This document shows positions 7,991 through 54,743 of a stretch of 64,000 nt of DNA, in pieces. Location: IMG/VR virus record IMGVR_UViG_3300025769_000106, positions 1 to 64,000 of that record, one strand, 5' to 3'. The notes under the pieces are model-generated. The model worked only from the letters and a program-made list of their open reading frames with translations. It searched no databases and had not been told where the DNA came from. Position 1 is the stretch's first letter; each line of letters begins with the position of its first letter. The DNA is from a virus. The translations under genes were made by a program, and so were the position numbers.

Positions 7991-7995
7991 TTACA

Positions 7996-25541: not shown

Positions 25542-26696
25542 TCAGGCACTAAGATCTCGGATCTTGCCGTGTGCGCCATAGAAGAGTTGCCAGAGTTCAC
25601 CCATTGTGTGGAATAGGCCGACTTGTCCAAGACGGTTGATACCGAATGGATCGCCAGTCTCGATACCAGATTCGTGGTAAAGAGTTGGTTTGGCCGTGCA
25701 GAAGTAGGTGTAGTCGGTGTCGATGAAGTATAGTCGGGAAAGACCATCATCAACAACGTCCTTGGAAGGAATGATCGGGACTCCGTTGTAGGTTGCAACA
25801 ACGAATCCAGCATCCATACCAGGAACACCTTGGACACCGTTGACGGAAGGTGAAACACGCTTCATCTCGGTAAATCGCTGTTGTGGTTGGAGGAGTTGTT
25901 GGATCTTCTCAACGGTATCGTAGCCAGTTAGGATGACCTTTGGCTGACCACCACGTTCCCAAACGCTTCGGAACATTCCATCGAGGATGTTCAAAGTGAG
26001 AGGGCGTTCGTTGGAAGCACCGTTTGCACCAGCATCGACGTTGGCGTCGTACCATTCACGGGCAGTAGCACCAGAGGAGTCTCGGGTGAGACTGTATTGG
26101 TTGTGAACTGCTGCTGAACTGATGTCGTCCATTCCAGACTTCTCAACGAAGGAGGAGGAGATTGCACGGTCAATGGATTCAAAGTTGTTTCCAGCGACGG
26201 TGTTGACATCTCGAAGGAGCATCTTGTTGATCGACTCAGCGTGAGATTTCGACATTTCCATCTTGATCACAGCACGTGCATCGCCAAGTCCATCGTCCTT
26301 GTCTGCAAGGAACATTGCAGTTTCGCTCAGGTCGAACTTGCTTGCAATGGTCTTTGGCTTGGTGCTGACTTCGTGGAAAGTTGGCTTGGTGGAGTCAGGA
26401 AGGGTTCCGTTTTCAGGAAGGCCGCTTGCTTCATCAGGCTTGCCAACCACGACACGCCATCCACTCTTTTCCCAAGGCTTCTTAGGAAGGATCGAGAAGG
26501 CGTTGAATTCTTGGTTGAGTTGCGACCAAACCTTACGCCCAAAGATGGCGTTGTAGGTTCCAGTCGTGGTGGACATCAATGGTGAATCGGCTTTGAGCAG
26601 ATCGGTTCCGCTGTATGCCCATGCATTTGATCCTGCGCCAGCACCGTAGTAAAGGCGTTCCATGTCTTCGATTGTTCGGATGTATCCTTGCGTCAT
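25542..26696 (-). CDS. Major capsid protein, HK97 fold
   Basis: 384 aa after GGAGATGATG. Typical HK97-type layout: an N-terminal arm, an extended loop with ASGLPENGTLP-like and EVSTKPKTIASKF, a spine helix with MSKSHAESINKMLLRD and an axial domain with LTLNILDGMFRSVWERGGQPKVILTG, then YNGVPIIPSKDVV and LYFIDTDYTYF. The last 40 residues are hydrophobic and structured. Order protease-capsid is the norm. Forms the icosahedral shell. Confidence 0.9.
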   Translation of the reverse strand: MTQGYIRTIEDMERLYYGAGAGSNAWAYSGTDLLKADSPLMSTTTGTYNAIFGRKVWSQLNQEFNAFSILPKKPWEKSGWRVVVGKPDEASGLPENGTLPDSTKPTFHEVSTKPKTIASKFDLSETAMFLADKDDGLGDARAVIKMEMSKSHAESINKMLLRDVNTVAGNNFESIDRAISSSFVEKSGMDDISSAAVHNQYSLTRDSSGATAREWYDANVDAGANGASNERPLTLNILDGMFRSVWERGGQPKVILTGYDTVEKIQQLLQPQQRFTEMKRVSPSVNGVQGVPGMDAGFVVATYNGVPIIPSKDVVDDGLSRLYFIDTDYTYFCTAKPTLYHESGIETGDPFGINRLGQVGLFHTMGELWQLFYGAHGKIRDLSA

Positions 26697-33261: not shown

Positions 33262-33660
33262 TCAAATCACCCGATGCGGTTGGAAGTATCCAGAATCTCG
33301 TCCATGGCGACTCACTCCCAATGCAACGGCATTTTCAGTTCCATTGTAATCCGATGCGGTATTATCGAATTGTGGGATTGAACCAAGGAATTGGTCGGAT
33401 GCAGGTTTCTTTGCCATTGATTTGGCGAGGAGGTCGTGTGTGCTTAGATCGGATTTGAGCATCGAAAGAGCGTTCTCTGCTGCTTGCAAGTGCATAGCAA
33501 TCGAATCTCGATCATTCTCTGCAATTGCCTTTTCAATCGCTTCAACTGCTGCCTTTGCTCGACGAGCCATAGGATCCATTTTTTCGATTATTCCAAAACC
33601 ATTCGTCATGTCGCTCATCCTTCCCCATGTCTCACCTGTTAAAGAGCGTTCCGCTTTCAT
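33262..33660 (-). CDS. Small helical head-cluster protein (132 aa)
   Basis: ATG overlaps the portal stop (ATGA). Helices with RAKAAVEAIEKAIAENDRD and HLQAAENALSMLKSDLS (about 38-77) look like a coiled coil. The N-terminus is polar. No motif recognised. Position suggests a small head or scaffolding component. Confidence 0.6.
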   Translation of the reverse strand: MKAERSLTGETWGRMSDMTNGFGIIEKMDPMARRAKAAVEAIEKAIAENDRDSIAMHLQAAENALSMLKSDLSTHDLLAKSMAKKPASDQFLGSIPQFDNTASDYNGTENAVALGVSRHGRDSGYFQPHRVI

Positions 33661-35456
33661 TCATCCAATCCTTTACGCTTTTTCATTTGATTCAACTTGT
33701 GATCTGCCGCTGATTCCGCTGGTGATTTGAGATCTCGTTTGTCTGTTTTTTTGGTCGCACCAGTTGGTGATCCTTCTTGACGCCGAACCATGCCTGGTGA
33801 TGAACCGCCCGATTGACGGGTGTTTTGGCTGAGGGTTCGCAAAGGAGGGATGTCATTTGTCGGATCCATTGCGGTGTGCATGGCCGATGGAACAACCACC
33901 GATCCACGTGAAGGGGTGAACTCTGTTCTCTTGATGAGTATGTTTGGATCATCAATGTAGTCCTCATCAGTCTTTGCAACTTGCTGACCGCCTTGTTGAC
34001 CGCCTTGCTGTTGAGCGGCAGCGGCTTGAGCGGCAGCGACTTCTTCAGGATTCGGCTCACGGAAATCAAAGTGTAGGATTTTATCGTCAATTCCATCTCG
34101 AAGAGTTGCTTCATAACCTGCTTGTTTCATCTGCATCATGTTGCGGATTGCCATTTCATCTCTTCGCAGGTGCATGATTTCATCTTCCTCTTCATGCGGG
34201 TTGAGTTTCAATTCCCATTCGGTTATGTCGAACGCTTCTGCGATTTGTGGGAAAAGAACTCGATTGTAAATGGATTGAGCGTAGGCAACAGAACGATTGC
34301 TGACTACAATCTGCATTCCCTCGTTGTTCAAGCCTCCACCCGATACATCATTCATGAATACATTGGATACGCCAAAGAATGCTGCGATACGCTGGCGAAT
34401 GTCATCCTTGATCGGGATGTATTGAAGTTCCTCCAGGGTGTCCATCATACGAACATACTCAAGGCCACCACGCCCAGATTCGGTTTCAACACCAATTGTT
34501 GGAATGTAATTTGGATCTCGTTCGAGATGCTCTTGGATATTGCGAGCCGTTCTTTCAACGGTTTCCATGTTGGATGACTTGATGACCATCACGCCACGTG
34601 GCATACGCTTCTTTTGATATGCCGAATACACATAATTGTCCATCGCAATCAGGGTGTTCACTTGACGCCACATCGTTGCCACAGGACTTCGACCGTACAA
34701 CTTGGATGGCGACCATTTGCTGATATGGATAACTTCGCCCTCAGTATAGACCTGCCCCTTTCCAACACCTGCCAAATTCATGTAATGAATCGGTACAACT
34801 GGCGTTCCAGTCGTCGGACACTTTTTCTTTGGGTCATTGGTTCGGAAGGTTCGATCAACCAGACTTGTGTATTGGCTCCCTCCTCGAACACCACGCTTAT
34901 CCGCAAGTATTCGCATGAAAATAGGATCTGCACGGCTGATCTCTTTCACTCGATAGAACATAATTTTCTTGGTATCTGGATCAACGAAGTATTCTTTGGT
35001 GAGGATGATGTATGCGTCATCGACGATGTTGAGATCCATTTCAACCTCTCTTAGGATTTCAATGAAGTCTTGCAACATATTGTTTTGTGAAGACAACAAC
35101 GTTTCCGCATATTCCAATTGCGATTTATCGGCTTTTCTCACCTGACCTCCACATTTTGTGCATTCCTCAACTTCTTGATTGTAGGTTTCATCGCATTCTC
35201 TGCATTTTACAACGAACTTAGGTTTCCACCCAAATCCTTTGCGGAATGTTTCGACTGAAAGGTGGTTGAGGATTGATCTAAGGACGACGCACTCATACGA
35301 TGCTGCGTAAAGGGCAGGGATTGTAATACCCTGCAAAAGAGCAGGTTCTTGTATTCCAGATTGGAATAAAGGCATCGATGGCATTGGGGTTGTATGCCTC
35401 TCCATGTCCATGCCAATGGCTGAGAATAGCCTCTCCATTTTCTTACGATCAGCCAT
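33657..35456 (-). CDS. Portal protein with inserted zinc ribbon
   Basis: 599 aa. Portal hallmarks: VIHISKWSPSKLYGRSPVA and the following NTLIAMDNYVYSAYQKKRMPRGVM, then a C-terminal region with Gln/Gly repeats. Family members form the dodecameric DNA channel. Unusually, about residues 80-105 contain a zinc ribbon, CRECDETYNQEVEECTKCGG, in the N-terminal wing. The last 100 residues are polar and Gln/Gly rich (QQGGQQGGQQ). The ATG sits 8 bases inside the upstream stop region with GGAG upstream. Confident by motif and position, two genes after TerL. Confidence 0.9.
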   Translation of the reverse strand: MADRKKMERLFSAIGMDMERHTTPMPSMPLFQSGIQEPALLQGITIPALYAASYECVVLRSILNHLSVETFRKGFGWKPKFVVKCRECDETYNQEVEECTKCGGQVRKADKSQLEYAETLLSSQNNMLQDFIEILREVEMDLNIVDDAYIILTKEYFVDPDTKKIMFYRVKEISRADPIFMRILADKRGVRGGSQYTSLVDRTFRTNDPKKKCPTTGTPVVPIHYMNLAGVGKGQVYTEGEVIHISKWSPSKLYGRSPVATMWRQVNTLIAMDNYVYSAYQKKRMPRGVMVIKSSNMETVERTARNIQEHLERDPNYIPTIGVETESGRGGLEYVRMMDTLEELQYIPIKDDIRQRIAAFFGVSNVFMNDVSGGGLNNEGMQIVVSNRSVAYAQSIYNRVLFPQIAEAFDITEWELKLNPHEEEDEIMHLRRDEMAIRNMMQMKQAGYEATLRDGIDDKILHFDFREPNPEEVAAAQAAAAQQQGGQQGGQQVAKTDEDYIDDPNILIKRTEFTPSRGSVVVPSAMHTAMDPTNDIPPLRTLSQNTRQSGGSSPGMVRRQEGSPTGATKKTDKRDLKSPAESAADHKLNQMKKRKGLDE

Positions 35457-36681
35457 TCACTACACTCTCCTTCATTGTGATGAAGTCTTCATCGGACATA
35501 TTCCATGCCTTCAAAAGAGCAACTTTGCTTCGAGTTGACGATTGATCATAATTCAAACATCTCAAAGCCTCTTTATCCTGATCAATTGCCTTTCTCAAAA
35601 TAATCGCCTCATCTGTTTTGTTGTGAATAAATGGAATGGCAATGTCCAATGATTTGGATACTGATTGCTCTCCCTCAATAACGAGTCCATCTCCTTCTGC
35701 AATGATCCCCGCCACCCCCAATTCTTGGTTAAGAGCCGTTGCATAATGTTTGCATATTGCTGAATTGAAAGGAAGAATCAAACGGGGAAGACCTTGAGGA
35801 TTTAATTCGATGGCTCCTCCGTGATCGAAAAGCCCCCCAATCAATGCCCCTGCATTTTTCACCAAAAGATCTCCTCGCTCCACATCATAAAATGTGCCAC
35901 GCATATTGGCTTTACGACTTGACCCTACGGCGGATATTCCGTAAAGGAAACCATGGGATTTAATCAGCATGGAGACTTCTGTTGAACTGGCATCCAAACC
36001 ATATGATTGTAGCGATTGTGCATTCATTGCACCACGGTCGTTTAGGTGTTCTGCACATTGCTTGAGGATCAAGTGTTCTCTTCGAGTCAAATGACTTTCC
36101 TTTGAAATCCGATTTGACCATGACTGATATGCCTGTTCCCGATCTGGGTCATCATTTGCATCATTCCATGACTTGACAAGCCTACGGAACGGTATCTCCA
36201 ATGTTTTTGGATTGCGTTGTAGCATTGAATAATCAAAGTCGGTGAATGGCAATTCATCGATCAAGTGTTCCGATACCGAGGGGTATGATTTGAGAAGCGA
36301 GATTCTCTCTGCTCGGATCAAAGGCTTCAATACTGGAATAAGATCTTCTCGCCCTCCTTTGATGAACACGTCAAGGATTTCCGTCCCTTCCATACCAAAA
36401 TTGTCTCGGAACCATGTTTTGCTAAGATACTGAGTCAATTCTGTCCCTGGCTGATCTGTTGGAGCGGTGCTTTCAGCAGAATCCATTCCCTCAATACCTG
36501 ATTCTTCTCTTGGGCTGCCAACTTTCAATTCATTGTTGACCTTCTTTTTGTCTTGAAGAACCTTTTTCTCTTGGAGATTCACTTTCAACTCTTGATCGAT
36601 GACTTTGTTTGCATCCAACTTTTTCATCAAAGCATCTGCAATGGATTCAACACCATCAATTCCTTTGATTTCCTTAAGCAC
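35449..36681 (-). CDS. LAGLIDADG-like endonuclease candidate between TerL and portal
   Basis: A GTG at 36681 overlapping the TerL end with GGGGTGG upstream gives 410 aa; the open frame extends to 36819, but its 5' part lies in TerL. The N-terminal region is a Lys-rich coiled coil. The centre (about 235-370) resembles LAGLIDADG homing endonucleases: GDLLVKNAGALIGGLFDHGGAIELNPQG with the key Asp in G-L-F-D, followed by PRLILPFN and a later GLVIEGEQS. In the family this helix pair forms the dimer interface and holds the catalytic Asp. If real, it might be a site-specific nuclease or DNA-binding protein used at packaging; a homing role is the other reading. Confidence 0.45.
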   Translation of the reverse strand: MLKEIKGIDGVESIADALMKKLDANKVIDQELKVNLQEKKVLQDKKKVNNELKVGSPREESGIEGMDSAESTAPTDQPGTELTQYLSKTWFRDNFGMEGTEILDVFIKGGREDLIPVLKPLIRAERISLLKSYPSVSEHLIDELPFTDFDYSMLQRNPKTLEIPFRRLVKSWNDANDDPDREQAYQSWSNRISKESHLTRREHLILKQCAEHLNDRGAMNAQSLQSYGLDASSTEVSMLIKSHGFLYGISAVGSSRKANMRGTFYDVERGDLLVKNAGALIGGLFDHGGAIELNPQGLPRLILPFNSAICKHYATALNQELGVAGIIAEGDGLVIEGEQSVSKSLDIAIPFIHNKTDEAIILRKAIDQDKEALRCLNYDQSSTRSKVALLKAWNMSDEDFITMKESVVNG

Positions 36682-38110
36682 CTGCCCACCCCAGTCGTGA
36701 TTGCCATTGTTCTGCATCAAGGATAACGATGTTGTCTCGATACTCCTTCGTAGCCTGAACGGAGAGGGCGAGAGCCATAACCATATCGTCGTGTCCACCA
36801 AGACTTTCCATTCGACCATTGTCGAGCATCGTGAAAGTGGAGAGTTCAGTAAGCAATGTGTTCATCAATCTCAACGTCCCTCCTTCGTCTTTGTAGGGTA
36901 TAATCAGGTGGCCCCGTTCAAAGTGCAGTTGGAGGGTATGAATTAAAGCCTCTTTCTTCATTCGGCTCATATTGAATGGTTTTATCGGAAGATCTCCAAT
37001 CTCGGCAAGGACTTGATTGAACGCCATTGCGAAGTTGTTTGTCTCCAATTCAATGATCACGGGATTGAATCTCGCATTCAATTCGATAATTTTGTCGATC
37101 TGGGAGGAGAAGTCCATTCCCTTTTCATGATGGGTATGAACAATGTGCTTATGCCTGTTCTCATCCATTGCAATAACCATCATGCAGGTGTAATCCGCCT
37201 TTCGATTTGCAGAGATAGCAGGATCCCATCCGATGTAATAATTCAATTCTTGATCCGTCTTCGGATAATAGGAAAGAGCAAGTTGATCGTCTTTGACTTG
37301 ATTCAAAACCTCTTCGGGGAAAAGACTTGCATCGCTTGCAATTGGCTTGCAAAGATACTCTCTTGTGAATGCGATGGAGGTCATGTCATTGCGCCGATTA
37401 TTCAAAGCCTCAAGCGACCAACGCTCTGGAAACAAAGGCTCTCCTGATCTTTCGTTGATCGCGGGGTACTCTCGAACAGCGTAGGACTTCAACTTCTTCA
37501 ATTCGGAATACAGATCCGTGTACGAGAACGGCGTTCCAACAATGCACAATTGCGCGGTGTGGTGAAGAACTGGCAATAATGCCGTGTAAAACCATGACGA
37601 AATGTGCTTAAGTTGGGTTTGTGCTTCACTTGACAATATGTCGTCAAGGACTACAATTTGAGGGTGCGCTCCACGAACTGCCTTTCCAACTGACATAGCG
37701 GAGATCGAGGATTTGTTTGTGAACTTGAACTTCTGCTTCGCCCAACCTCTTTTTGGTTTGAGATGTTGAAGTGCAGGGATTGATTCGATCAATTCATTCA
37801 TTTTTTGCATATGCTCAATTGACTGGTGTTGACTGTGGGAAAAGAACAGAACTTCGGTTCCAGGGTTGTACGCCATTTTCCACAAAAGGTACACTCGATA
37901 AAAAACGGATTTGCCATGATCACGGCTTGCAATGATGCAAGTCTTGCTGTTGTTTTCCGATAAATCATACCATTCTTGGTGGAACTTGGTTAAAATCCAT
38001 GGATTGCGTTGATCGTATTTGCCACAGATCTCTTCAAAGAAGTATTTGAAATCCCGACGACCCATCTCAAAATCGACTTTGGCGGTCAGTTCTTGCATCC
38101 CGTCCGACAT
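36674..38110 (-). CDS. terL: Terminase large subunit
   Basis: 478 aa. ATPase domain: Walker A-like ASRDHGKS (61-68) and Walker B IVVLDDIL (152-159), with the adjoining coupling motif SSEAQT. Nuclease domain of the RNase H-like type: YIGWDPAIS with Asp296, ELETNN with Glu355, and HDDMVMALAL near 450 with the final Asp pair. The enzyme translocates viral DNA into proheads and cuts it. Length is normal for the family. AAGGA precedes the ATG. The next gene appears to begin at GTG inside its last codons. One of the firmest calls in the window. Confidence 0.95.
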   Translation of the reverse strand: MSDGMQELTAKVDFEMGRRDFKYFFEEICGKYDQRNPWILTKFHQEWYDLSENNSKTCIIASRDHGKSVFYRVYLLWKMAYNPGTEVLFFSHSQHQSIEHMQKMNELIESIPALQHLKPKRGWAKQKFKFTNKSSISAMSVGKAVRGAHPQIVVLDDILSSEAQTQLKHISSWFYTALLPVLHHTAQLCIVGTPFSYTDLYSELKKLKSYAVREYPAINERSGEPLFPERWSLEALNNRRNDMTSIAFTREYLCKPIASDASLFPEEVLNQVKDDQLALSYYPKTDQELNYYIGWDPAISANRKADYTCMMVIAMDENRHKHIVHTHHEKGMDFSSQIDKIIELNARFNPVIIELETNNFAMAFNQVLAEIGDLPIKPFNMSRMKKEALIHTLQLHFERGHLIIPYKDEGGTLRLMNTLLTELSTFTMLDNGRMESLGGHDDMVMALALSVQATKEYRDNIVILDAEQWQSRLGWAGA

Positions 38111-43872: not shown

Positions 43873-44302
43873 TTTTCAGCCTCCTTCGTATTGCTCGATA
43901 GCACATATCGATTTCATTCCCCAATGTCATGTACCATTGGCACAATGTTGGGGTCTTTGCGTATGATTTGGACATTGGAATCATTGCCTGTTTCAAACCG
44001 CTGATCACTTGAGTTGCATCCAAAAGAGCAACACATTCTGCTTTTGAGTTTGCCCGAAGCACCTTCAAATCCTCAAACAACATTCGGCAAACGATAAGTG
44101 AGCCGTACACTTCTCCAACGATATGATCTGGATCGGAGATGCCGTGGTCAAGAATACTGTCATGCCACATTTTTACAACAGCATCAACAGAATGGCAATA
44201 ACTTATCGCCTCTTCAATTGTGATGGTTTCTTTGCTAATATCGGAACGCAATACTTCGTCATGAGGCGTACCTCGAAGCATCAATTTGTGTAGCGTCTTC
44301 AT
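43859..44302 (-). CDS. Helical protein of unknown function (147 aa)
   Basis: ATG at 44302 overlaps the previous stop (ATGA) with GGGGTGATG upstream; an in-frame ATG at 44350 is less likely. All-helical appearance with MWHDSILDHGI, LIVCRMLFEDLKVLRA and a basic C-terminus RAIRRRLKNGRK. Contains several Cys but no paired motif. Between the zinc-finger protein and the 502-aa disordered protein of the packaging cluster. No family recognised. Confidence 0.7.
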   Translation of the reverse strand: MKTLHKLMLRGTPHDEVLRSDISKETITIEEAISYCHSVDAVVKMWHDSILDHGISDPDHIVGEVYGSLIVCRMLFEDLKVLRANSKAECVALLDATQVISGLKQAMIPMSKSYAKTPTLCQWYMTLGNEIDMCYRAIRRRLKNGRK

Positions 44303-45009
44303 TCGCTCATCACCCCTGCGGCGATTAGCCTTGATTTTATTTGCGACCATTCGGTTGGAGATTTTTCAACGAAATACTCCTGCATGACTGTAAGAACTGA
44401 AACAGATTGCCGATCATCGATTGATTCAGCCTTTTCCATCCATTTTGCAAGTTCGAGAAGAGTATCACGAATTTCCCGATGTCCTTTGAAGACTGTTTCA
44501 ACATCCCTCATATTGACAATTTCATCCTCGTCATCGAATTGATTTTCAACATGATCAAGGACACGCCCCATGAGCCGATCCAATCGATTGAGATTCTTTT
44601 CAACTCGTTGCAATGATTCATGGACACTTTTCATGGCCGAAGGCAATGCATCAATGGAAACGTGTTGCTGGATAATTGGTTTGGTGTGTTTTTCCATATG
44701 ATTTGAAATAACGCTACTGGCTATATCCAACTCTGTTGCAAAATCGTCAATCCCCGCATGGCCTTCCAGGATAGCAGCCTCAATCTCTGCTCTGTTCGGA
44801 TCCGTACACAAGGGGCAATCATGGTTGCTGTTGTTGTAGTATTCGCCCGAATGACGACGCATATGGCGGTGTGATGTTCCATCCGCCCATTGATTCAATC
44901 GATCAATCTCTTCGACATCATGGATGCCTTTGCGAATCATTTCTTCAAACGAATCTCGATCTGGATGTTGACAGAACGGGCAATTCTTCCGAGTCTGCCG
45001 CCCTGCCAT
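44299..45009 (-). CDS. Tandem zinc-finger DNA-binding protein, candidate small terminase
   Basis: 236 aa from an ATG at 45009 (GGAG upstream). Two repeats of C-P-x-C...H-x(3-4)-H: CPFC...HRHMRRH and CPLC...NHMEKH. In each the intervening helix reads I-x-x-x-I with an acidic start and a V-x-x-[SI] helix resembling a recognition helix. A coiled-coil region (about 125-165, ESLQRVEKNLNRLDRLMGRVLDHV) follows. This layout resembles phage small-terminase-like proteins annotated on C-x-x-C/H motifs, and it lies a few genes upstream of TerL. Identification as the small terminase is inferred. Confidence 0.55.
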   Translation of the reverse strand: MAGRQTRKNCPFCQHPDRDSFEEMIRKGIHDVEEIDRLNQWADGTSHRHMRRHSGEYYNNSNHDCPLCTDPNRAEIEAAILEGHAGIDDFATELDIASSVISNHMEKHTKPIIQQHVSIDALPSAMKSVHESLQRVEKNLNRLDRLMGRVLDHVENQFDDEDEIVNMRDVETVFKGHREIRDTLLELAKWMEKAESIDDRQSVSVLTVMQEYFVEKSPTEWSQIKSRLIAAGVMSE

Positions 45010-45032
45010 ACTCTGCTCCACACGCCCTGCCC

Positions 45033-45254
45033 TTAATTGGATTTGTCATGGTTTTTGTGTTGATGGCAACGATTGTTGTATTTTTTAGATCCTGCGCTTT
45101 GACACGGCTTGCCCGATTTTGTTATTGCGCCACACTTTGTTTTCTTACCAAGAATGATCTTGACATCATCCAAATCAAAATCGCCATCGCCGTCTTGATC
45201 GAAACGTCGAAGAATCGGACTGTATGGCAACGGATTGTATGCTCGAAGCCCCAT
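45033..45254 (-). CDS. EF-hand plus Cys/His motif protein (73 aa)
   Basis: A start at the ATG 45254 avoids overlap with the preceding gene; a TTG at 45299 would add 15 residues. Residues 19-30 are a textbook EF-hand calcium loop, DQDGDGDFDLDD, with Asp/Asp/Asp at the coordinating positions and a hydrophobic residue at position 8. The C-terminus has CGAITKSGKPC (41-51) and RCHQH (62-66), like the short C-x(9)-C...C-x-x-H modules found in many phage proteins. Probably binds calcium and zinc; role unknown. Confidence 0.65.
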   Translation of the reverse strand: MGLRAYNPLPYSPILRRFDQDGDGDFDLDDVKIILGKKTKCGAITKSGKPCQSAGSKKYNNRCHQHKNHDKSN

Positions 45255-45267
45255 ATTCCTTGAGGCA

Positions 45268-45519
45268 TTACCGAAAGGAGGCAAATTGTCGAACCGCAAC
45301 CGAGAGGGTGAACATCAGCCCTAAAGCCCCCAAAAGAACTTGACCAGAAGTCAATGAACTCCCCTTCCAAATCAGCATCACAAACAATGCCAGCATGAAT
45401 GATAGAATGTAAATCATCGTTGCACTTTCGACCAGCATTTTGTTTGGACTCAATAACTCAACGGTCTGCCCGTACATATTCGTTTGATTTGGTGATCTGG
45501 ATTCATCTTCTTGTATCAT
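45268..45519 (-). CDS. Small membrane protein, two helices (83 aa)
   Basis: A polar N-terminus of about 28 residues (QEDESRSPNQTN) is followed by two hydrophobic segments (MIYILSFMLALFVMLIW and VLLGALGLMFTLSVAV) and a short tail. The ATG overlaps the previous stop (ATGA). Holin-like topology, but similar topologies are common among unknown phage proteins. Confidence 0.7.
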   Translation of the reverse strand: MIQEDESRSPNQTNMYGQTVELLSPNKMLVESATMIYILSFMLALFVMLIWKGSSLTSGQVLLGALGLMFTLSVAVRQFASFR

Positions 45520-46133
45520 AGTACCGCCGCTCCCATTGTTGCGCCCTTAGCCATTGTTTGTCCAAAACCGCCTTGCTGCTGAACTTGATTCCCAAGCATA
45601 CCTCCAAGGAGGCTTCCAAAGAACCCAGGTTGTTGCGGATTCATCATTCCTCCCATGGTGTGCGCTTGTAGGAACATCTGTTTCTGTTGTTCATTCATTT
45701 GCAAAGTTTGTTGTGCAGATGCTTGCAATCGAGTGAGGGTGAGTCCAAGATTTTCAGGAGACATTGTGTTGATTGAAGCAGGGAGACTGGCTGCATCTAA
45801 GGTCATCAATCCAGTTGCTTCATCCAATTTGAACGAAACAGAGGAAAAGAATTCTTTCACAGACAGGCGAACGATTTCACCGATCAACTCCATCATCAAA
45901 GGCATATTTTGAGTCGTCATGAATTGAGCCATAGGATCATAAAGAGAAAGCAGACGTGCGGTTGCCGTGATTGGGTCATTTGCCATTTGCTGCATCATAG
46001 GATTTTGAGCCATTTGCATACCCATCATTGATGGATCCATTCCCATTCCCATTCCCATTCCCATGCTGTTCATTTGCGTCGGTGCGCCGAATTGTTGAGT
46101 CGGCTGTGTTTCATTCTTTGAGAACCATCCCAT
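45516..46133 (-). CDS. Met/Gln-rich low-complexity protein (205 aa)
   Basis: An ATG at 46133 (GAGGGATGAT upstream) gives MGWFSKNE; an ATG two codons earlier is possible. Residues 20-55 are a Gly-Met repeat (GMGMGMGM) followed by Met/Gln-rich sequence. The centre (60-140) is regular and helical with RLLSLYDPMAQF and LIGEIVRLSVKEFFSSVSF. The C-terminal 60 residues are Gly/Gln/Met rich and mildly hydrophobic. Coding-sequence repeats, not an intergenic element. Probably a structural or assembly protein; no family recognised. Confidence 0.7.
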   Translation of the reverse strand: MGWFSKNETQPTQQFGAPTQMNSMGMGMGMGMDPSMMGMQMAQNPMMQQMANDPITATARLLSLYDPMAQFMTTQNMPLMMELIGEIVRLSVKEFFSSVSFKLDEATGLMTLDAASLPASINTMSPENLGLTLTRLQASAQQTLQMNEQQKQMFLQAHTMGGMMNPQQPGFFGSLLGGMLGNQVQQQGGFGQTMAKGATMGAAVL

Positions 46134-46135
46134 AA

Positions 46136-47125
46136 TCATCCCTCATTCGTTGGCGTTGTTGAGCCTTGTTGCTGCCCCAATATAGCGTTGTTCATTTGAT
46201 TTTGCATATTTCCGCCCATTCCCATTGCGTTTCTTTGAGCCAGTAAGGTTTCCGATTGAATTGCTCGAAGATCAAATGTGATGTGTACCAGATCAACAAC
46301 ACCAGTCGAAGGGTTAGGCAATTGCGTCAAATGAATGCCTTTGCTATGTTGAGCGTCTTTGTGAATCATTGCAAAGAATTGATCATACTTCAACAATGAA
46401 TCGGGTGTGCTTCGATTTGTCTTCGTTGAACCTGCTGCCATCAATGCCCCCATACCTGGGATTTTGGTGAACTTTGTTCCCTTGCTTGCAAAACGTTTGA
46501 ATCCTTGAGATTCCAAATCATGTTCTTGCAATATGGATCGTAGCGTATGATAAATGTGCAGATGTGCAGGGCAAAGGGTGCTATTCATCTCATCGCCGTG
46601 ATCACCGTGCGTTCGAGCCAGAGGCTTCTTTGCATTCCCCGTATCTTCATCAAACCAATAAATGTCGGCCAATGAAAGTCCTGTCGCCTCGTCAACGATG
46701 TGTGCATAAGCATTATCGCCTTCAAGGAAACGTCGAATGTCAACTCCACAACAAGCACATTCATGTGCAGCATTGTATCGGTAAATTTTGAAAAGACCCA
46801 GATTATAAGAAGGTGGCCTTAACGCTTTACGGAGCATTTTGATGTTCTTTTTTCGAGCCTTTGCAGGATTCTTTGGATTTGACTTCAATTGGATCTCAAC
46901 AGTTGGAATCAATTGTTCTTCGCCAACATCTCCTGTCGATCCAGCACTTGCCATCTCAGCACGTTGCTGAGTCTTCAACAATTCATAGGATACTCCTGAT
47001 TGTTGAGCCACACCTCGAAGTTGTTCGTCGGACAGTCCTCGAAGAGAGATACCTCCCCCAAACGAAAAAGGGTTGAACGCCCTTGCATTCCACGCCATTA
47101 ACCCTGCCATAACTGACAACATCAT
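46136..47125 (-). CDS. Cys/His-rich protein with hydrophobic N-terminus (329 aa)
   Basis: The N-terminus MMLSVMAGLMAWNARAF is hydrophobic and could be a signal-anchor. A zinc-like cluster follows in the middle: HECACCGVD (about 122-130), then RTHGDHGDEMNSTLCPAHLHIYH (about 168-190), reminiscent of an HNH or treble-clef zinc site. The C-terminal part is Met/Asn/Gln rich (NAMGMGGNMQNQMNNAI). No Shine-Dalgarno is evident. Between the GTPase and a Met-rich protein. Function unknown; an HNH-type nuclease is a possible but unproven reading. Confidence 0.7.
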   Translation of the reverse strand: MMLSVMAGLMAWNARAFNPFSFGGGISLRGLSDEQLRGVAQQSGVSYELLKTQQRAEMASAGSTGDVGEEQLIPTVEIQLKSNPKNPAKARKKNIKMLRKALRPPSYNLGLFKIYRYNAAHECACCGVDIRRFLEGDNAYAHIVDEATGLSLADIYWFDEDTGNAKKPLARTHGDHGDEMNSTLCPAHLHIYHTLRSILQEHDLESQGFKRFASKGTKFTKIPGMGALMAAGSTKTNRSTPDSLLKYDQFFAMIHKDAQHSKGIHLTQLPNPSTGVVDLVHITFDLRAIQSETLLAQRNAMGMGGNMQNQMNNAILGQQQGSTTPTNEG

Positions 47126-47135
47126 AAAGGCATCG

Positions 47136-47867
47136 CTACATAGATTGGAGTAGTTCAGTCAATGACTTTTCCACGTTTATGCCATGCTGAGAGGATATTG
47201 CTTTGATTTCGGCACGGATCCCCGCCCTTCTCAATCGTTTCAATGATTCACGGTACGGGGCAACCACAGGATGTTCCTTCTGCATACCGTACTCCCAAAG
47301 GGTCTGGGCGTTTTGATCCCACCAAACATCGATCTTATTCACCATCAAACAAAACAATCGAGGAACATATTTTTTTGAGTTCCGTCTTGATTTTCTTGAA
47401 ATGTTCTTGCTAATATCCTTTTTGATGATATTGTCCACCAAGTAGGCTAATCCCGCAGCAGAATCAGCAGCAAATTGAGGGGAGGTCATTGATCTGTGAT
47501 CGACCATGTAAATGATCAATTCCACTTTTCGCCCAAACATATCATCGACCCAAAGGTTGCGAAACATATGATCTCCCGCCAGATCAGTTGTTTGAACAGG
47601 GGTTTTGTCTTTCTTGTACCGTATTTTTTTCCGAGTAGCGGTCGGATCCTGAAAACCAGTTGATGTTTTTGCTTTTGGATGAGAGGTACGAAAATGCAAA
47701 GGTATCGGTTCAATATCACCTGGAACGGTGAGATATTGATCGAGAGTTGTTTTTCCAACCAAAGAAGGCCCGTATATCCCTACTCGATACGGTTTCAAAA
47801 CACGGTACATTGCATAAAGTGCAGATGTCGATGCCATCAACATATGCCCTGCGATAAGGGCTGACAT
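47136..47867 (-). CDS. Membrane-anchored Ras/ARF-like small GTPase
   Basis: 243 aa; ATG 47867 after GGTGGTC. Residues 1-22 form a hydrophobic anchor (MSALIAGHMLMASTSALYAM). GTPase motifs: G1 GPSLVGKTT (33-41), G3 DLAGD (95-99), G4 NKID (177-180) and G5 AISSQ (223-227); a Thr in the TSTG region near 68-71 could be G2. A basic insert (DISKNISRKSRRNSKK, about 151-166) precedes the G4 strand. All core nucleotide-binding motifs look intact. The family switches between GTP and GDP forms to control assembly or trafficking. Small GTPases of this type are rare in tailed viruses. Flanked by membrane proteins, so it probably acts at a membrane. Confidence 0.85.
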   Translation of the reverse strand: MSALIAGHMLMASTSALYAMYRVLKPYRVGIYGPSLVGKTTLDQYLTVPGDIEPIPLHFRTSHPKAKTSTGFQDPTATRKKIRYKKDKTPVQTTDLAGDHMFRNLWVDDMFGRKVELIIYMVDHRSMTSPQFAADSAAGLAYLVDNIIKKDISKNISRKSRRNSKKYVPRLFCLMVNKIDVWWDQNAQTLWEYGMQKEHPVVAPYRESLKRLRRAGIRAEIKAISSQHGINVEKSLTELLQSM

Positions 47868-47877
47868 CAAAGACCAC

Positions 47878-48102
47878 CTATCCGCTTAATCCTTTGAAAA
47901 AATTGACCACATCGGAAGGGGATACTCCCAAGATTTCCAATCCGAACAGAATAGCAAATGTGAGAGCGATTCCTCCGATCAAAGCAACAACTGTTCGTAC
48001 CCATCCTGCAACTCGCTCCATTTTTCGCTCATACGCATTTTCCGCCAGGATCTGCGACATGGCTTCGGTTTGACGCTCTTGCGTTGTTGTGAAAGGCCAC
48101 AT
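47878..48102 (-). CDS. Small single-pass membrane protein (74 aa)
   Basis: An amphipathic, charged first half (QERQTEAMSQILAENAYERKMERV) is followed by a hydrophobic segment VVALIGGIALTFAILFGLEIL (about 39-59) and a short tail DVVNFFKGLSG. GAGGGGG precedes the ATG. The composition fits a small holin-like or scaffold-anchoring membrane protein. It sits directly upstream of the GTPase. Confidence 0.7.
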   Translation of the reverse strand: MWPFTTTQERQTEAMSQILAENAYERKMERVAGWVRTVVALIGGIALTFAILFGLEILGVSPSDVVNFFKGLSG

Positions 48103-48114
48103 AAGGATACCCCC

Positions 48115-48549
48115 TCAGTCTTGGTCTTCTTCTTTCTTTTGCGGAATTCCGAACTGTTGGATCGGGGGGGTGGATGCTTGTTGTTGCCAATAAGTCCTTT
48201 TGTTGGCTCGACGCTGATGAAGTCGTTGTTGACCACGCATCCACTTGTCCACTTGGTTTTCCTTTGCGAATTCGGCTCGCATAGCAAGTGAATCTCGAAC
48301 ACCACCCACATGGAATAAAACCATGGCCGTACAAAGGAATCCAAAACAGATCAATCCGTATTGCAATCCCATTTCAGCAGGTCCAGCATCTGGGAGATAC
48401 CAACCCATGTGTGATACTGCGACAGATGTTCCCGTCAAAAGTGCTTGCCATAGAAGCATAGCGATCAAGTTCACATCAATACGATTTGAATCGTCGCTCA
48501 CATACGGAGCGGGATAATACTGTGGCGGTTCGTTATTTGGTTTATTCAT
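48115..48549 (-). CDS. Membrane protein, two predicted helices (144 aa)
   Basis: The N-terminal 25 residues are Pro/Asn/Tyr rich and polar. Two hydrophobic segments follow (about 27-50, VNLIAMLLWQALLTGTSVAV, and about 64-85, LQYGLICFGFLCTAMVLFHV). The C-terminal half is cytosolic-looking, basic and Gln rich (RRANKRTYWQQQ) and ends acidic. First gene of a run of membrane-associated proteins next to the GTPase. No family recognised; a virion or cell membrane location cannot be decided. Confidence 0.75.
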   Translation of the reverse strand: MNKPNNEPPQYYPAPYVSDDSNRIDVNLIAMLLWQALLTGTSVAVSHMGWYLPDAGPAEMGLQYGLICFGFLCTAMVLFHVGGVRDSLAMRAEFAKENQVDKWMRGQQRLHQRRANKRTYWQQQASTPPIQQFGIPQKKEEDQD

Positions 48550-48713
48550 TGTATCTCATCTCCTTTGCTCTTGTTTTGAAAGTAAAAAGCGAGAACATGA
48601 TTCATGAAAGAGGACTTCGATTCTCGGCCTCTTTCGCTTTCCATTTTCTTGAAAAGATCTTCTCGCATGACTACGGACACGTGTCGCCCCATAAGAACCT
48701 CTCATGGTTCACA
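48550..48713. promoter_or_regulatory. Divergent intergenic region with palindromes
   Basis: The non-coding region between the plus-strand gene and the membrane-protein operon has a perfect palindrome-like CATGATTCATG at 48596-48606 and a near-perfect GAAAAGATCTTCTC at 48651-48664. Either could be a regulator-binding site. AAGGAGATGAG before 48549 is the Shine-Dalgarno of the operon's first gene. Confidence 0.4.
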
Positions 48714-48722
48714 CCTATATGA
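48714..48722. promoter_or_regulatory. Bidirectional TATA-like element CCTATATGA
   Basis: CCTATATGA on the plus strand lies 52-60 bases before the plus-strand gene; its complement TCATATAGG faces the minus-strand operon beginning at 48549. The identical nine bases occur at 28142-28150 in front of the prohead protease gene. It could serve either or both directions. Confidence 0.45.
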
Positions 48723-48773
48723 GCGTTGAGATGTCCAACAACATGAAATAATTTGGCTGATGTGGCACTACAT

Positions 48774-49286
48774 ATGAGCAATGCGCCAACGATCCTTGTT
48801 GCAGTTCAAACATTAAGATCATTCAATCAAGCCTTATCGGGTATGTCTTCCGATCAGGAATCTGTTGCAAATTGGATTCGACGCTATGCTGAGTCCGATT
48901 CTCGAAGCAGCACATTCCCCAAGGATGCGGCAATTGGTTTGCTTTCGCACTTGCAAAACCCCGTTTTTGCAAATGCAAACCTTACCTCCGAGCAACAGGC
49001 TTGGTCTGGATTGATGTCATCTGCTGAACAAATGCTCCAAGAAGAGAACAATTGGATCGGACAAAAATCTGCACAGCAAAACGCAACGACATTTACTCGG
49101 ATGTTTGGAAGTGATTTGACATGGATTCAACTCTTCGCTCAGGCAAACAGCGTACCAAGCCATTGGACAAACGAATACATGATCAATTATTTGATCACAG
49201 AATTAAGATCCTGTCAAGGGTCATCTGGAGCGGGAGCAATACCTCACACGGCTTTGGCTCCGAATGTTTCTCAAAACATCCCTTAA
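48774..49286 (+). CDS. Only plus-strand gene; unknown function (170 aa)
   Basis: An ATG at 48774 is preferred to an upstream in-frame TTG at 48753. The protein starts MSNAPTILVAVQTLRSFNQAL and is mostly helical with Ser/Gln/Asn-rich segments; Trp residues recur (ANWIRR, QAWSGL, TWIQLF, HWTNEY). No membrane helix or catalytic motif is seen. It is transcribed against all other genes, from the gap shared with the membrane-protein operon, and ends within the last codons of the 389-aa methyltransferase. A TATA-like box (48714-48722) is about 55 bases upstream. The isolated orientation may mean separate timing, for example early expression. Confidence 0.75.
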   Translation: MSNAPTILVAVQTLRSFNQALSGMSSDQESVANWIRRYAESDSRSSTFPKDAAIGLLSHLQNPVFANANLTSEQQAWSGLMSSAEQMLQEENNWIGQKSAQQNATTFTRMFGSDLTWIQLFAQANSVPSHWTNEYMINYLITELRSCQGSSGAGAIPHTALAPNVSQNIP

Positions 49287-50452
49287 CCCATTTGATCCCA
49301 AACGTTTTGGAAAATGTCTTGATCGATGTTAGCCATGCCCATTAACTCCGACTTTTTCCCTCGAACAGCACCTTTACCACCGCTGGTTTCCTTTCTTTGA
49401 AGTTCATGGATGTCAAAGCCCATTTGTTTCATTGGGTCAACGATGGCGGGTTCAAATGAATTGAATACAACAGTTGGAAAGGCATTGTCTTTCAATGCCT
49501 CAATCATAGCAAGAGTCTTTCTTTGATCATCCATTGTGAAGAAATTTAATGCCCCTTCTTCCCCCAAATATGGAGGGTCGAGAAGAAACATATCGTTGGC
49601 GGGGTCAATTCCAATATCCGATGACAACTGCACATCCAATGGTCGATTGAGGTATTCCCAGTCTTGCATGACCTCCGCCCAAGGATCCAACTTCCATCGA
49701 CCTTTACCGCCCAAAAGCGTTTGCGGTCTAAACGTGTTCCCCTTTCCAGGCTTCAAACGATTTGGCTGATCCCCCATCATGTCAAAATAGGCAGACTCAA
49801 AACCTTGATCGATTGGCTTGTTTCCTGTAAATCGTATCGAACTATTCCATTTGTTGAAGTACGAAGGGGTTGAGGGAGAGTACCTAAGCAAACCGTTCAT
49901 CGCCATATGTTGAAGAACCAAAAACAATTGATCTTTTCTTTGCCTTTCACTTTGGGCAATAACCCCAATTGCTTCTTTTTCACGGAGTTCATTGAATTCC
50001 TGTCGCAATTCATAGAATTTTGGACCCATAAAGAAAGGCTTTCCTCCCATATCATCAACCATACTTTGTGGGATTTTACCAAGATCCATCATTTCGCCCG
50101 TTTGTTGATTGGGCATCATAACTGAATCACCTGCTTGATACGTGAATTCTTCTGGGTCAAATTCCAAAGATTCAGGATCTCGAATTAAGCGTTGATGAAA
50201 TGATGCCAGATCAGGATTGATGTCCATGAGAACAGATCGCTCTGGCCTCATACCCAAAGAAAGACCCGATGCTCCGCCAAACGGTTCAATGACTCGACGA
50301 TTAGGGAACATTTGTTTCAACGCACGACCAATCCGCTGATACTGCGGATTTGCTTTGTTGCCTTGAATTTTAATCGCAGGAGGCAACGATCCGCCCGTTT
50401 GCAAAGCCCTCAATGCTTTTTTGTATTGAGGATGCTCTTTGCGAATGTCCAT
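49283..50452 (-). CDS. Dam-like DNA methyltransferase with C-terminal tag-like motif
   Basis: The ATG at 50452 follows GGAGGTG by six bases, so it is preferred to the longer frame from 50539, giving 389 aa. Motif I: VIEPFGGASGLSLG, then VLMDINPDL; catalytic motif FLLDPPYLG. This is a D12/Dam-type N6-adenine methyltransferase, with a long central insertion that may form the target recognition domain. There is no leader at the N-terminus, but the protein ends DIFQNVWDQMG, similar to the C-terminus of the preceding protein. It is the second adenine methyltransferase of the block and only loosely similar to the 404-aa one. It converges with the plus-strand gene with a 4-base overlap. Confidence 0.88.
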   Translation of the reverse strand: MDIRKEHPQYKKALRALQTGGSLPPAIKIQGNKANPQYQRIGRALKQMFPNRRVIEPFGGASGLSLGMRPERSVLMDINPDLASFHQRLIRDPESLEFDPEEFTYQAGDSVMMPNQQTGEMMDLGKIPQSMVDDMGGKPFFMGPKFYELRQEFNELREKEAIGVIAQSERQRKDQLFLVLQHMAMNGLLRYSPSTPSYFNKWNSSIRFTGNKPIDQGFESAYFDMMGDQPNRLKPGKGNTFRPQTLLGGKGRWKLDPWAEVMQDWEYLNRPLDVQLSSDIGIDPANDMFLLDPPYLGEEGALNFFTMDDQRKTLAMIEALKDNAFPTVVFNSFEPAIVDPMKQMGFDIHELQRKETSGGKGAVRGKKSELMGMANIDQDIFQNVWDQMG

Positions 50453-50454
50453 GA

Positions 50455-51501
50455 TCACACCTCCTTGCATTCGTCCCATGCTGCTTTGAAAATATCCATT
50501 GATCGTCGGATAATGTCGCCAGTAAGTGCCGTATCCCACAATTCCCGTCCAGCAGTTGTCAAATCATTTGGATCAAAATACAATCCGTGAGTCCCAGTTG
50601 CTATGCCTCGATCCAACGCAAAGACTGAAAAATCGTTCCCTGCGGTCAAAGAAAGAGGGACAGGGATTCCATCAAAGGTGTAGCCACTTCGAGGATCCGT
50701 GTATTCGACATAGCGTTGACCAGGGCGATTAGGCTGGAAGTCGCTCCACCCAATAGGAATCTGCAAAAGCGGATCAACTGATCCTGAAACACCGCCTCTC
50801 CTTGCTTCTCGCCACGGCATTCCAAAGTCCTGTCTCAAAGGCAGACGTTGTGAAGGTTTCCACTTTTGTTTTGGAGGCAATGTTGGATCTTTGATGTCAT
50901 ATACGGTGTACCCAAATCGAGGAGCCTCCCATGAACCCATTGCCATCATTGCATCTCCTGCTTGATTCCTTCCAAGCCTCATCTCTTCATGCATACCCAA
51001 TATGTCCATTGGGGTTCTCTCACCAGAATACAGTTGTTGCAACTCATCGGGAGTCAAATCCCCTGCTGTCCACATATGTGCCGTTCGATTGGCATTCCCA
51101 CGTGCATCCGTGTTCTTTTGTTTTCTCCCAAGCCAAGCATCCATCTGCTTATTTTCATTGACACGGAAAAATGGATTCCTCAAAGGAAGTGCATTTGCGA
51201 TTCCAATTGTTTCTTGACCGCCTCGAAGGATGCTCAATACGCCTGTGTTTGGCCTAATTTGACCCGTGTGAAGGTTCAAACCTGGTGCGATGTGAGGTAC
51301 ATTGATGTCGATATTGCGGAATGCTTCGACATTGTGAGGGCGACCCCATGTAAAACCGCCTTCTTTCAAATCCCTTAATTCACGGTTTTTCTTGCTCTCC
51401 AAGGGATAGGCGATCACGCCATCAGTTGATACTGTTCCCAAATCAACTCGATCACGCTCGTTTTTCAAAACGAGATCAAAGGCTTGATTGAATGCTGTCA
51501 T
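50455..51501 (-). CDS. Leader-tagged protein with a second tag-like C-terminus (348 aa)
   Basis: The leader MTAFNQAFDLVLKN replaces the Trp by Phe. The last residues, DIFKAAWDECKEV, again show F-x-x-A-W-D-x-x-K, so both ends carry the motif. The body is rich in Arg, Gly and Pro with recurrent LRxGxPR-like stretches (for example RQDFGMPWREARRGG around 230-244) and DPRSGYTFDG; no family is recognised. GGGAGGGAT precedes the ATG. Its stop is two bases before the next ATG. Confidence 0.85.
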   Translation of the reverse strand: MTAFNQAFDLVLKNERDRVDLGTVSTDGVIAYPLESKKNRELRDLKEGGFTWGRPHNVEAFRNIDINVPHIAPGLNLHTGQIRPNTGVLSILRGGQETIGIANALPLRNPFFRVNENKQMDAWLGRKQKNTDARGNANRTAHMWTAGDLTPDELQQLYSGERTPMDILGMHEEMRLGRNQAGDAMMAMGSWEAPRFGYTVYDIKDPTLPPKQKWKPSQRLPLRQDFGMPWREARRGGVSGSVDPLLQIPIGWSDFQPNRPGQRYVEYTDPRSGYTFDGIPVPLSLTAGNDFSVFALDRGIATGTHGLYFDPNDLTTAGRELWDTALTGDIIRRSMDIFKAAWDECKEV

Positions 51502-52924: not shown

Positions 52925-54307
52925 TCAATAACGCTCCAAAAGTGTTCTTTGTCTTGCGGATGGGCCAAAGGCAGAAGATGCGATTGCCCCTCCCACAGCA
53001 GGGACGACTACATTTCCGACTCCTGTATCAAACACTTTTTGTTGTTTTCCTGTTGTGTAAGTCCTATGAGTCAAACCATCGATTGGACTTGTATTGTATT
53101 TTGGATCAAACGTTTGAACTGCAAGCCATTCTTCGTCAGTCAAAGGTCGATTAAACATGAGCGTGGGACGATTATGGGTTTGACCTGATGTGTGTCGATT
53201 CGCAGGGTATGAATGAGAAAATGATCTCCTCTGCTTGTTTCGAGGCCCCCTTGCATCATCCCAAACAGATCCACCGCCCCTCATTCCCAAAGCGTTGATT
53301 TCTGGACCCGTGTTCCCTTTACCAGGTACTGTCGCTCCACTTAAGGAAATTTGAGGTCCATCGCCCAGTTCTCTTGCGCCAGTTGGCGTCAATCGACCAT
53401 GTTCCACCAAAGCACGAATCCATTCGTCAGTCAATCCTTTGTTTTCCTCCCATTCTCTTTGCAGATGGGGTGCAAAATCCAAGATTGATCTGCTTGGCAA
53501 TCGTCCAGCAACTGGCTTCTTTCGACGCGTTCGATCATAATGAGTTGGGTTCTTTGTCCATCCTTCGCCAATGATCATACGGTTTCGCGTTGATGGTGCG
53601 CCATAGTCAATTGCGTTCATCCGTGGATTTTGCTTTGGCATACCAAATGTGCCATCTCCTCGAAGCATCGCAAACACCTTATTGCGGAAATCCCGATCTA
53701 ATCCATCAAGCAATTTAGGATACTTGAGCAGGATTGGAATTGCTTCTTTTGCTTGTTCCATGTGCCATGAATTAAGGTCAATATCGGGATGCTTCTGCAT
53801 TTCTTGAGCCGTGTAAAACGAATTAAAAATTGGAGGGATCCCCTCCAATGCCCTTGCTTCTCGTTCTGCTGCACTTAACCCTGCATTTCCAGCAGAAGTC
53901 AATTTTTGACAAGGCGGTGAAAAACCAATGTGTGCCTTTCGTCCAGCGAGAGCATCGGCGTACAATTCGATTTGATCATCAGGATGTGCCATCCCTTGAT
54001 CGATACCAAGCAGGGCGGTCATTGTATTTTCTTCATATGGCCTTCGGACTGTATTGATTGCGTCCCATGCATCAACACCCATGGCAGTTGGAATTCCTGC
54101 TCTGCGGAATCCAGATGAGGTTCCGCCAATTCCTGCGTGTTCGTGAATTGCGGCAGCATCATCTCGCATCTCCTGTTGAGGGAACATGATGCGATTCAAT
54201 CGCGCCATCTCTTCAAGATCTTCGGGCGTCATGGCTTTCCACAACATATCCGAGAAAGCGAACTCGAATAAAGCCTCACTCAAATAACCGCCTCCATCTG
54301 TTGGCAT
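52925..54307 (-). CDS. Leader-like C5-cytosine DNA methyltransferase
   Basis: 460 aa from an ATG at 54307 (GGAGA upstream); an in-frame GTG at 54340 is less likely. Motif I appears as HAGIGGTSSGFRRAGIPTAMGVD (58-79), catalytic motif IV as SPPCQ with Cys133, motif VIII as GAPSTRNR (234-241) and motifs IX-X near the end as GNVVVPAVGGAIA. Motif VI (normally ENV) seems changed to MEQA. The family methylates C5 of cytosine through a covalent Cys adduct using SAM. The N-terminus (LFEFAFSDMLWKAMTP, 13-28) looks like a degenerate or shifted version of the leader, with W and K-A-x-P displaced. Target sequence unknown. Confidence 0.88.
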   Translation of the reverse strand: MPTDGGGYLSEALFEFAFSDMLWKAMTPEDLEEMARLNRIMFPQQEMRDDAAAIHEHAGIGGTSSGFRRAGIPTAMGVDAWDAINTVRRPYEENTMTALLGIDQGMAHPDDQIELYADALAGRKAHIGFSPPCQKLTSAGNAGLSAAEREARALEGIPPIFNSFYTAQEMQKHPDIDLNSWHMEQAKEAIPILLKYPKLLDGLDRDFRNKVFAMLRGDGTFGMPKQNPRMNAIDYGAPSTRNRMIIGEGWTKNPTHYDRTRRKKPVAGRLPSRSILDFAPHLQREWEENKGLTDEWIRALVEHGRLTPTGARELGDGPQISLSGATVPGKGNTGPEINALGMRGGGSVWDDARGPRNKQRRSFSHSYPANRHTSGQTHNRPTLMFNRPLTDEEWLAVQTFDPKYNTSPIDGLTHRTYTTGKQQKVFDTGVGNVVVPAVGGAIASSAFGPSARQRTLLERY

Positions 54308-54743
54308 ACGCTTCTCCAATATCAGGATACCTATTGCCACTTAACCGATCATTTCGTTGTAGCATTTGAACAAAATCCCACCATTCCATCTCAGTCATCG
54401 ATTTGTTGCCCATTGCAAAAAGTTGGATGTTTTTAGGATCAAGGCGATTGCCCATCATGATATGTCCATATTCCTCCGTGCCAAAATCATAACCGTGATC
54501 CCAGGGATCGAGGACTTGGGTGTTTTCATCTGTGCTAAATCCAAGCAACGCAGGTCCTTCGGATTCAGGATGGTTATCAACCATGCGATCCCACGCATAG
54601 GAGATGGCATCCTCATCATGAGGTGATCCAAAAGAATGCGGCTCAAATCCTTCTTCGAGGATCTTTTTTGCATTGGCAGCAGTTGTTCCGTGCCAATACT
54701 CAGGGTATCGGAATGCTTTCCAAACGAGGTCGAAGGCGGTCAT
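54276..54743 (-). CDS. Leader-tagged ADP-ribosyltransferase-like protein
   Basis: 155 aa. The ATG at 54743 overlaps the previous stop and follows GGAGGATGA. After the leader MTAFDLVWKAFR comes YWHGTTAANAKKILEEGFEP, the classical H-G-T strand plus helix I-L-x-x-G-[FL] of ADP-ribosyltransferases and related NAD-binding folds (PARP/KptA-like), in which the His contacts NAD. Later ALLGFSTDEN and EYGHIMMG may supply the remaining strand and the catalytic acidic region. Members modify proteins or nucleic acids with ADP-ribose from NAD+; T4 Alt is a virion-packaged example. The substrate is unknown, and the catalytic Glu is not certain. Confidence 0.75.
   Translation of the reverse strand: MTAFDLVWKAFRYPEYWHGTTAANAKKILEEGFEPHSFGSPHDEDAISYAWDRMVDNHPESEGPALLGFSTDENTQVLDPWDHGYDFGTEEYGHIMMGNRLDPKNIQLFAMGNKSMTEMEWWDFVQMLQRNDRLSGNRYPDIGEAYANRWRRLFE

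Follow-up and report, generated by a model that had tools for sequence, protein, structure and literature searches.

An Arf/ArvA-like small GTPase gene conserved with membrane-protein genes in the virion-gene block of magrovirus-like archaeal viruses

Small GTPases of the Ras superfamily are hallmarks of eukaryotic membrane traffic. The fold is already known in viruses, since giant viruses (Edafosvirus, Klosneuvirus, Pithovirus and others), which are unrelated large DNA viruses with eukaryotic hosts, also encode Ras/Rab-like members of it. On the prokaryotic side, the Poseidoniales are abundant marine archaea and serve as hosts of the Magrovirales (Aoguangviridae, Apasviridae and other clades), tailed dsDNA viruses with large genomes and HK97-type head genes. 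No GTPase is mentioned in the Magrovirales descriptions examined, although an earlier mention elsewhere in the magrovirus literature is possible. In archaeal cells, the small GTPase ArvA (OapA), together with ArvB/ArvC, is used to make vesicles (Mills et al. 2024, PMC10927574). In Haloferax, knocking out ArvA reduces the release of vesicles and overexpressing it increases their release, and the protein carries an N-terminal amphipathic helix (PMC10927574).

The DNA analysed here, referred to as the window, comprises positions 1 to 64,000 of the 64,189-base viral record IMGVR_UViG_3300025769_000106. It encodes an HK97-type major capsid protein, a maturation protease, a portal, a terminase large subunit (TerL) and a tape-measure-like protein, and, judged by the Caudoviricetes hallmarks among these (capsid protein, portal and TerL), the window virus is a tailed virus. 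These genes agree with the preliminary description of the window, which had placed a small GTPase in a tailed virus and had suggested an archaeal host. The host has since been supported through a 106-kb contig in the Poseidoniales single-cell genome AG-422-I20 that carries a collinear relative, in which the portal, TerL, protease and capsid genes occur in the window's order and are 65–80% identical. A Poseidoniales host is thus shown for the AG-422-I20 relative and would fit the window virus as well. Relatives reach 108 kb, and the record is probably part of a 90–110 kb genome. Host, head genes and size fit a magrovirus-like virus; the order Magrovirales is itself known by its replication genes (a replisome of its own, including PolB).

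An ATG start common to most relatives gives the GTPase a length of 243 aa, one codon shorter than the listed ORF of 244 aa, which opens at a TTG (Table 1). The complete G1, G3, G4 and G5 motifs that had been noticed in this protein are all present, and their key residues (G33, G38-K39-T40-T41, D95, G98, N177-K178 and D180) do not vary among 43 relatives, the most distant of which share 38% identity with the window. The R60-T61 pair is likewise invariant, and Thr61, which the preliminary description did not name, is probably the G2 residue. Purifying selection acts on the gene, with dN/dS values of 0.05–0.09 in the four pairs where the ratio was computable; together with the invariance of the motifs, these values indicate that the ORF is not a chance one. 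Residue 99 (codon 47571–47573, minus strand), the usual position of the catalytic Gln, is Gln in 31 of the 43 relatives and Glu or His in five others, while the window and six relatives close to it have Asp. Asp99 in the window's subclade suggests either slow intrinsic hydrolysis or a catalytic residue supplied by a partner.

Table 1. Positions in the window of the GTPase gene, its motifs (residues numbered from the shared Met) and associated genes
Feature	Position	Strand	Basis or occurrence
Small GTPase, 243 aa (stop included)	47136..47867	-	ORF list, start by relatives, conservation, predicted fold
N-terminal helix (residues 2-24), hydrophobic/amphipathic, which probably docks on the membrane	47796..47864	-	AlphaFold, hydropathy; membrane binding inferred
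G1/P-loop GPSLVGKT, residues 33-40	47748..47771	-	alignment
Thr61, probable G2 (switch I) threonine, invariant	47685..47687	-	alignment; assignment inferred
G3 DLAG, residues 95-98, then Asp99 (Gln in most relatives)	47574..47585	-	alignment
G4 NKID, residues 177-180	47328..47339	-	alignment
G5 SSQ, residues 225-227 (SAQ in most relatives)	47187..47195	-	alignment
RHH-like (ribbon-helix-helix) ORF, 48 aa, opens operon, overlaps next start	48546..48692	-	43/54 loci by pattern
Two-TM hairpin protein, 144 aa	48115..48549	-	53/57 loci
One-TM protein, 74 aa	47878..48102	-	55/57 loci
329-aa protein with a conserved cluster of Cys/His residues (probably for Zn); the most conserved partner	46136..47125	-	57/57 loci
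207-aa Met/Gln/Gly-rich protein	45516..46139	-	57/57 loci
Two-TM protein, 83 aa	45268..45519	-	55/57 loci
240-aa protein, two CPxC...H units, helical C-terminus	44299..45021	-	57/57 loci
Terminase large subunit (TerL), same-strand late block	36674..38110	-	
Portal protein	33657..35456	-	
Major capsid protein	25542..26696	-	

The gene lies near the head of an operon that can be called late from its gene order, with the TerL, portal and capsid genes on its strand and with short gaps or overlaps between the genes around it in the window. Across 57 loci the order on one strand is a two-TM protein (144 aa; TM, transmembrane), a one-TM protein (74 aa), the GTPase, the 329-aa and 207-aa proteins, a second two-TM protein (83 aa), the 240-aa Zn protein, then proteins of 163, 502 and 631 aa and, further on, TerL. 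Genes that are absent singly from a few of these loci are apparently accounted for by contig ends or sequence divergence (L064, L065). Via L065 the search reached a second, divergent clade, comprising 141 stretches that encode a relative of the GTPase. In all seven of its loci that were read the order is kept: TM-type proteins of 176–230 and 81–95 aa, matched to the window's TM proteins by position and sequence pattern, precede the GTPase, and proteins of 317–343 aa, 202–226 aa, 81–89 aa (two-TM) and the Zn protein follow. By eye, this clade usually has an AbrB/SpoVT-like ORF of 60–76 aa between the GTPase and the 317–343 aa protein, situated in loci L266, L278, L289 and L305 about 700–940 bases past the GTPase start.

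Of the TerL contigs, 25 continue for 10.2 kb or more upstream, and every one of these has the GTPase. Fourteen TerL records without it were considered as counter-examples and rejected, as none of them extends as far as 6 kb beyond TerL on the upstream side. Magrovirus-like viruses have the GTPase as a core gene, and its fixed order, together with the 25 contigs, places it in a conserved virion-gene block rather than among captured accessory genes. Beyond these viruses, a tblastn search of 50,697 phage records gave no credible match to the GTPase, which bears out its rarity in tailed viruses and leaves no sign of the close homologues, in the form of ordinary phage proteins of other function, that were looked for as counter-evidence. 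Among phage families the protein matches only a PHROG family of unknown function, and weakly; its 329-, 502- and 631-aa neighbours have no tblastn match to a known phage family.

The membrane-protein neighbourhood given in the preliminary description was recovered by hydropathy, with the 144-aa and 74-aa proteins next to the GTPase and the 83-aa protein further downstream. In the alignment, the 144-aa protein shows almost no variation in its TM hairpin, and when the viral collection was scanned this protein turned up only on contigs of the window's clade. The 83-aa protein scores 24.2 against a cut-off of 24.4 for RseC/MucC (E 3.5e-5), which may reflect the TM hairpin alone. The 329-aa neighbour gave a poor structural model (pLDDT 66, pTM 0.43), for which Foldseek found nothing. 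From its position and sequence, the 240-aa Zn protein is possibly the small terminase subunit (TerS).

This arrangement could also be read as an assembly switch that involves no membrane remodelling, in which the GTPase sets the timing of head assembly or of DNA packaging, its GTP state loads or releases the 329-aa, 207-aa and TerS-like proteins, and the TM proteins mark only a membrane assembly site. The contiguity of the block with the TerS-like gene, TerL and the portal, and the presence of the 329-aa and 207-aa genes at every locus, are consistent with such a role. However, TM proteins flank the GTPase upstream in nearly all loci, and no tailed phage is known to use a GTPase for packaging, which counts against this explanation; we regard it as possible though somewhat unlikely. 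The location within the virion block and the strict conservation would likewise suit a GTPase, or membrane partners of it, that is packaged in the virion and acts at the membrane of the next cell, e.g., in genome entry, although a tail or virion family signature is absent and this role appears improbable.

Several further observations concern the surroundings of the cassette. The 48-aa ORF that opens the operon falls below the 60-aa ORF cut-off and may regulate the operon; it has no Pfam match, and its assignment as RHH-like therefore rests on sequence pattern. A 177-aa gene on the plus strand (48753–49286), divergent from the cassette, is present in 26 loci, and the interval of about 200 bp between the two (48550–48752), which also holds the RHH-like ORF, is probably a bidirectional control region. 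An 88-aa protein encoded at 45033–45299 (minus strand) has a Cys/His-rich stretch after an EF-hand-like loop (DQDGDGDFDLDD) and was recognised in the same place in 13 of the 57 loci.

Structural modelling, which had been proposed as a check on the assignment, gave a GTPase fold. The AlphaFold model (pLDDT 85, pTM 0.83) has a Ras-like alternation of strands and helices, and a Foldseek comparison with the PDB returned 829 chains at E<=0.001, of which the best 50 are all small GTPases (Rab, Rap, Arf, Rac and others). The protein thus has the predicted small-GTPase fold of the Ras superfamily (TRAFAC) and may bind and hydrolyse GTP. In a viral structure library the best 34 matches to the model all come from giant viruses of eukaryotes, at about 11–18% identity over the structural match. 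In contrast to the giant-virus genes, the GTPase gene of magrovirus-like viruses is a core gene inside the virion operon.

The N-terminal hydrophobic anchor of the preliminary description held up in part. A moderately hydrophobic helix is predicted at residues 2–24, but it is not a clear TM segment: the best 19-residue Kyte–Doolittle mean in the window is 1.19, below the value of 1.6 used for a TM call, and in 56 of 57 loci the GTPase is not called as a TM protein by hydropathy. Several relatives have an amphipathic distal half of this helix; in the window it is weakly so. By analogy, the helix resembles the membrane-associating helix of ArvA and Arf1 more than a membrane-spanning anchor, and it would bind the membrane in a similar way. 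An Arf-like G domain after a hydrophobic helix, together with a weak Pfam match to SRPRB and the presence of several small TM proteins to insert, could also point to an SR-beta-like protein that regulates insertion of viral membrane proteins via the host SRP/Sec route. However, membership of the SR-beta family (PF09439) was rejected, since the SRPRB score is 13.8 bits against a cut-off of 25 and the clear TM anchor is absent, and we consider this role very improbable.

The Pfam matches of the viral GTPase are all weak, and the family matched by most members (30 of 43) is Arf. With Arf/Arl/Sar proteins (PF00025) the viral GTPase shares a GKTT P-loop, in most viral members a DxGGQ motif followed by F-R-x-L-W, and an N-terminal membrane-type helix, whose amphipathicity is weak in the window and stronger in relatives. 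However, membership of the Arf family was rejected, the window scoring 13.0 bits against a cut-off of 22.3. The Arf WDxGGQ form of G3 was likewise rejected: the Trp before the Asp is absent from the viral alignment, and the Gln occurs in 31 of 43 members. The viral protein further differs from Arf in having Ser rather than Gly at position 2, and a long insertion between the fourth and fifth strands that comes with a K/R-rich segment and NKxDxWW. Its best PDB sequence match is 8oun, a GTP-binding protein (E 3.1e-6), followed at a much lower level mainly by Arl8, Rab33B and Arf.

Like the viral GTPase, ArvA is a single domain of less than 250 aa with a helix ahead of the first strand, and the P-loop pattern RxGIYGPxxxGKTTL is common to both. 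When the viral profile was run with HMMER against 194 Thermoplasmatota genomes, 70 of the 82 matches lay within 1.5 kb of arvB and are thus almost all ArvA; the first 43 matches in a row, the virus itself aside, are all arvB-linked, and the same genomes also hold other GTPases. By hhalign only the P-loop and the residues that follow it resemble ArvA (42% identity across 43 columns), and at G3 ArvA has DTPG, whereas the virus has DxGGQ or DxAGD (D-[ILVF]-[GA]-G). The neighbours searched in the viral cassette had no Pfam match at E<=1 to ArvB (DUF2073/OapB) or ArvC (DUF2072/OapC), and hhalign gave a probability of at most 4.2% between these proteins and the eight viral families besides the GTPase. 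A viral ArvABC operon was therefore rejected.

Over the whole domain the viral GTPase is closer by hhalign to a Ras-like profile (97.7%, 147 columns) than to ArvA. A Ras/Rab origin within the host phylum was nonetheless rejected, as the Ras-like proteins of Thermoplasmatota have no HMMER match to the viral profile, although the profile comparison shows a common fold over 147 columns. With HMMER favouring ArvA and hhalign showing the Ras fold, neither can be called the source. A tree that included SAR1A and an ARF1 sequence identical to that of PDB 1r8q joins the viral clade to ArvA with support of 86/72, but the very long viral branch (2.9) makes this placement untrustworthy. The shared features, together with the failed membership criteria, make the viral GTPase Arf/ArvA-like and a member of neither family. 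Ras/Rab-like GTPases are numerous in some Thermoplasmatota genomes (G176, G184, G165, G192 and G197, with up to 14 matches per genome), and others have none.

On the host side, 145 other Poseidoniales genomes yielded no chromosomal source of the GTPase. For ArvB, 21 Poseidoniales genomes gave no match, ArvA gave one marginal partial match in 60 genomes, and an Arf model matched 1 of 12 genomes, that match being the viral gene itself; as many of these genomes are incomplete, the absences are a tendency and not proof. Since the hosts seemingly have neither ArvA nor ArvB, the virus may bring a membrane switch that its host lacks. Small GTPases are common regulatory targets, and replacement of the catalytic Gln by Asp could keep the switch locked in one clade, which would accord with a viral protein that mimics or titrates host GTPase regulators and so alters division or envelope functions. 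Such manipulation is nevertheless what we consider least probable of all the roles weighed here, because ArvA, ArvB and Arf counterparts are essentially not found in the sampled Poseidoniales and a fixed place in a virion-gene operon would be unusual for an accessory gene.

The ArvA-like layout and the three small TM proteins at the head of a packaging/head operon lead us to favour, at a probability of slightly under one half (about 0.48), that this lineage-specific Arf/ArvA-like GTPase acts as a switch that docks on the membrane and serves its late remodelling during assembly or exit. The role is drawn from where the gene sits in the operon, from its membrane-protein neighbours and from the analogy with ArvA and Arf. 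The GTPase would cycle between GDP and GTP forms, and in the GTP form the N-terminal helix would be exposed and dock on the host cytoplasmic membrane. The docked protein may then recruit or gate the 144-, 74- and 83-aa TM proteins and, likewise, the 329-aa and 207-aa proteins encoded next to it, and the membrane would in this way be deformed or opened at the time when heads and tails are produced, with assembly at the membrane and/or release of virions as the outcome. In favour of a membrane-docked switch are, besides the fold, motifs, purifying selection and conserved cassette described above, the Arf-like DxGGQ..F(R)NLW stretch in most viral members and ArvA as the nearest cellular profile matches in the host phylum. 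Against it are the window's helix, which is not strongly amphipathic, the absence of ArvB and ArvC from the cassette, the missing catalytic Gln in the window's subclade and a profile comparison over the whole domain in which ArvA does no better than Ras-like proteins. That magrovirus-like viruses encode a GTPase-driven membrane-budding or -opening machine for egress, analogous to ArvA/Arf vesiculation, is a proposal we hold to be quite doubtful; such a machine would differ from holin–endolysin lysis and from virus-associated pyramids.

Within the collections and papers searched, a small GTPase that is a core gene among the virion genes of tailed viruses of prokaryotes, accompanied by a fixed membrane cassette, is new; judged by these collections, a lineage-wide core GTPase would be the first such case in prokaryotic viruses. 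The conserved cassette suggests a switch-controlled membrane step of a type whose other known cases are in cells and in giant viruses that infect eukaryotes, and it offers a concrete candidate for the host exit of tailed archaeal viruses, a little-known process. The GTPase is accompanied by a fixed set of membrane proteins that is testable as a unit.

Elsewhere in the window, two DNA methyltransferase-like genes lie on the minus strand (49283–50539 and 59600–60814), the first of them just upstream of the cassette and variable between relatives, and an ORF at 52925–54340 has, judged by eye, the look of a DNA cytosine methyltransferase. Two very large proteins of 2510 and 1635 aa are encoded at the end of the virion block (458–12903, minus strand), the first of which has a weak virion-structural match.
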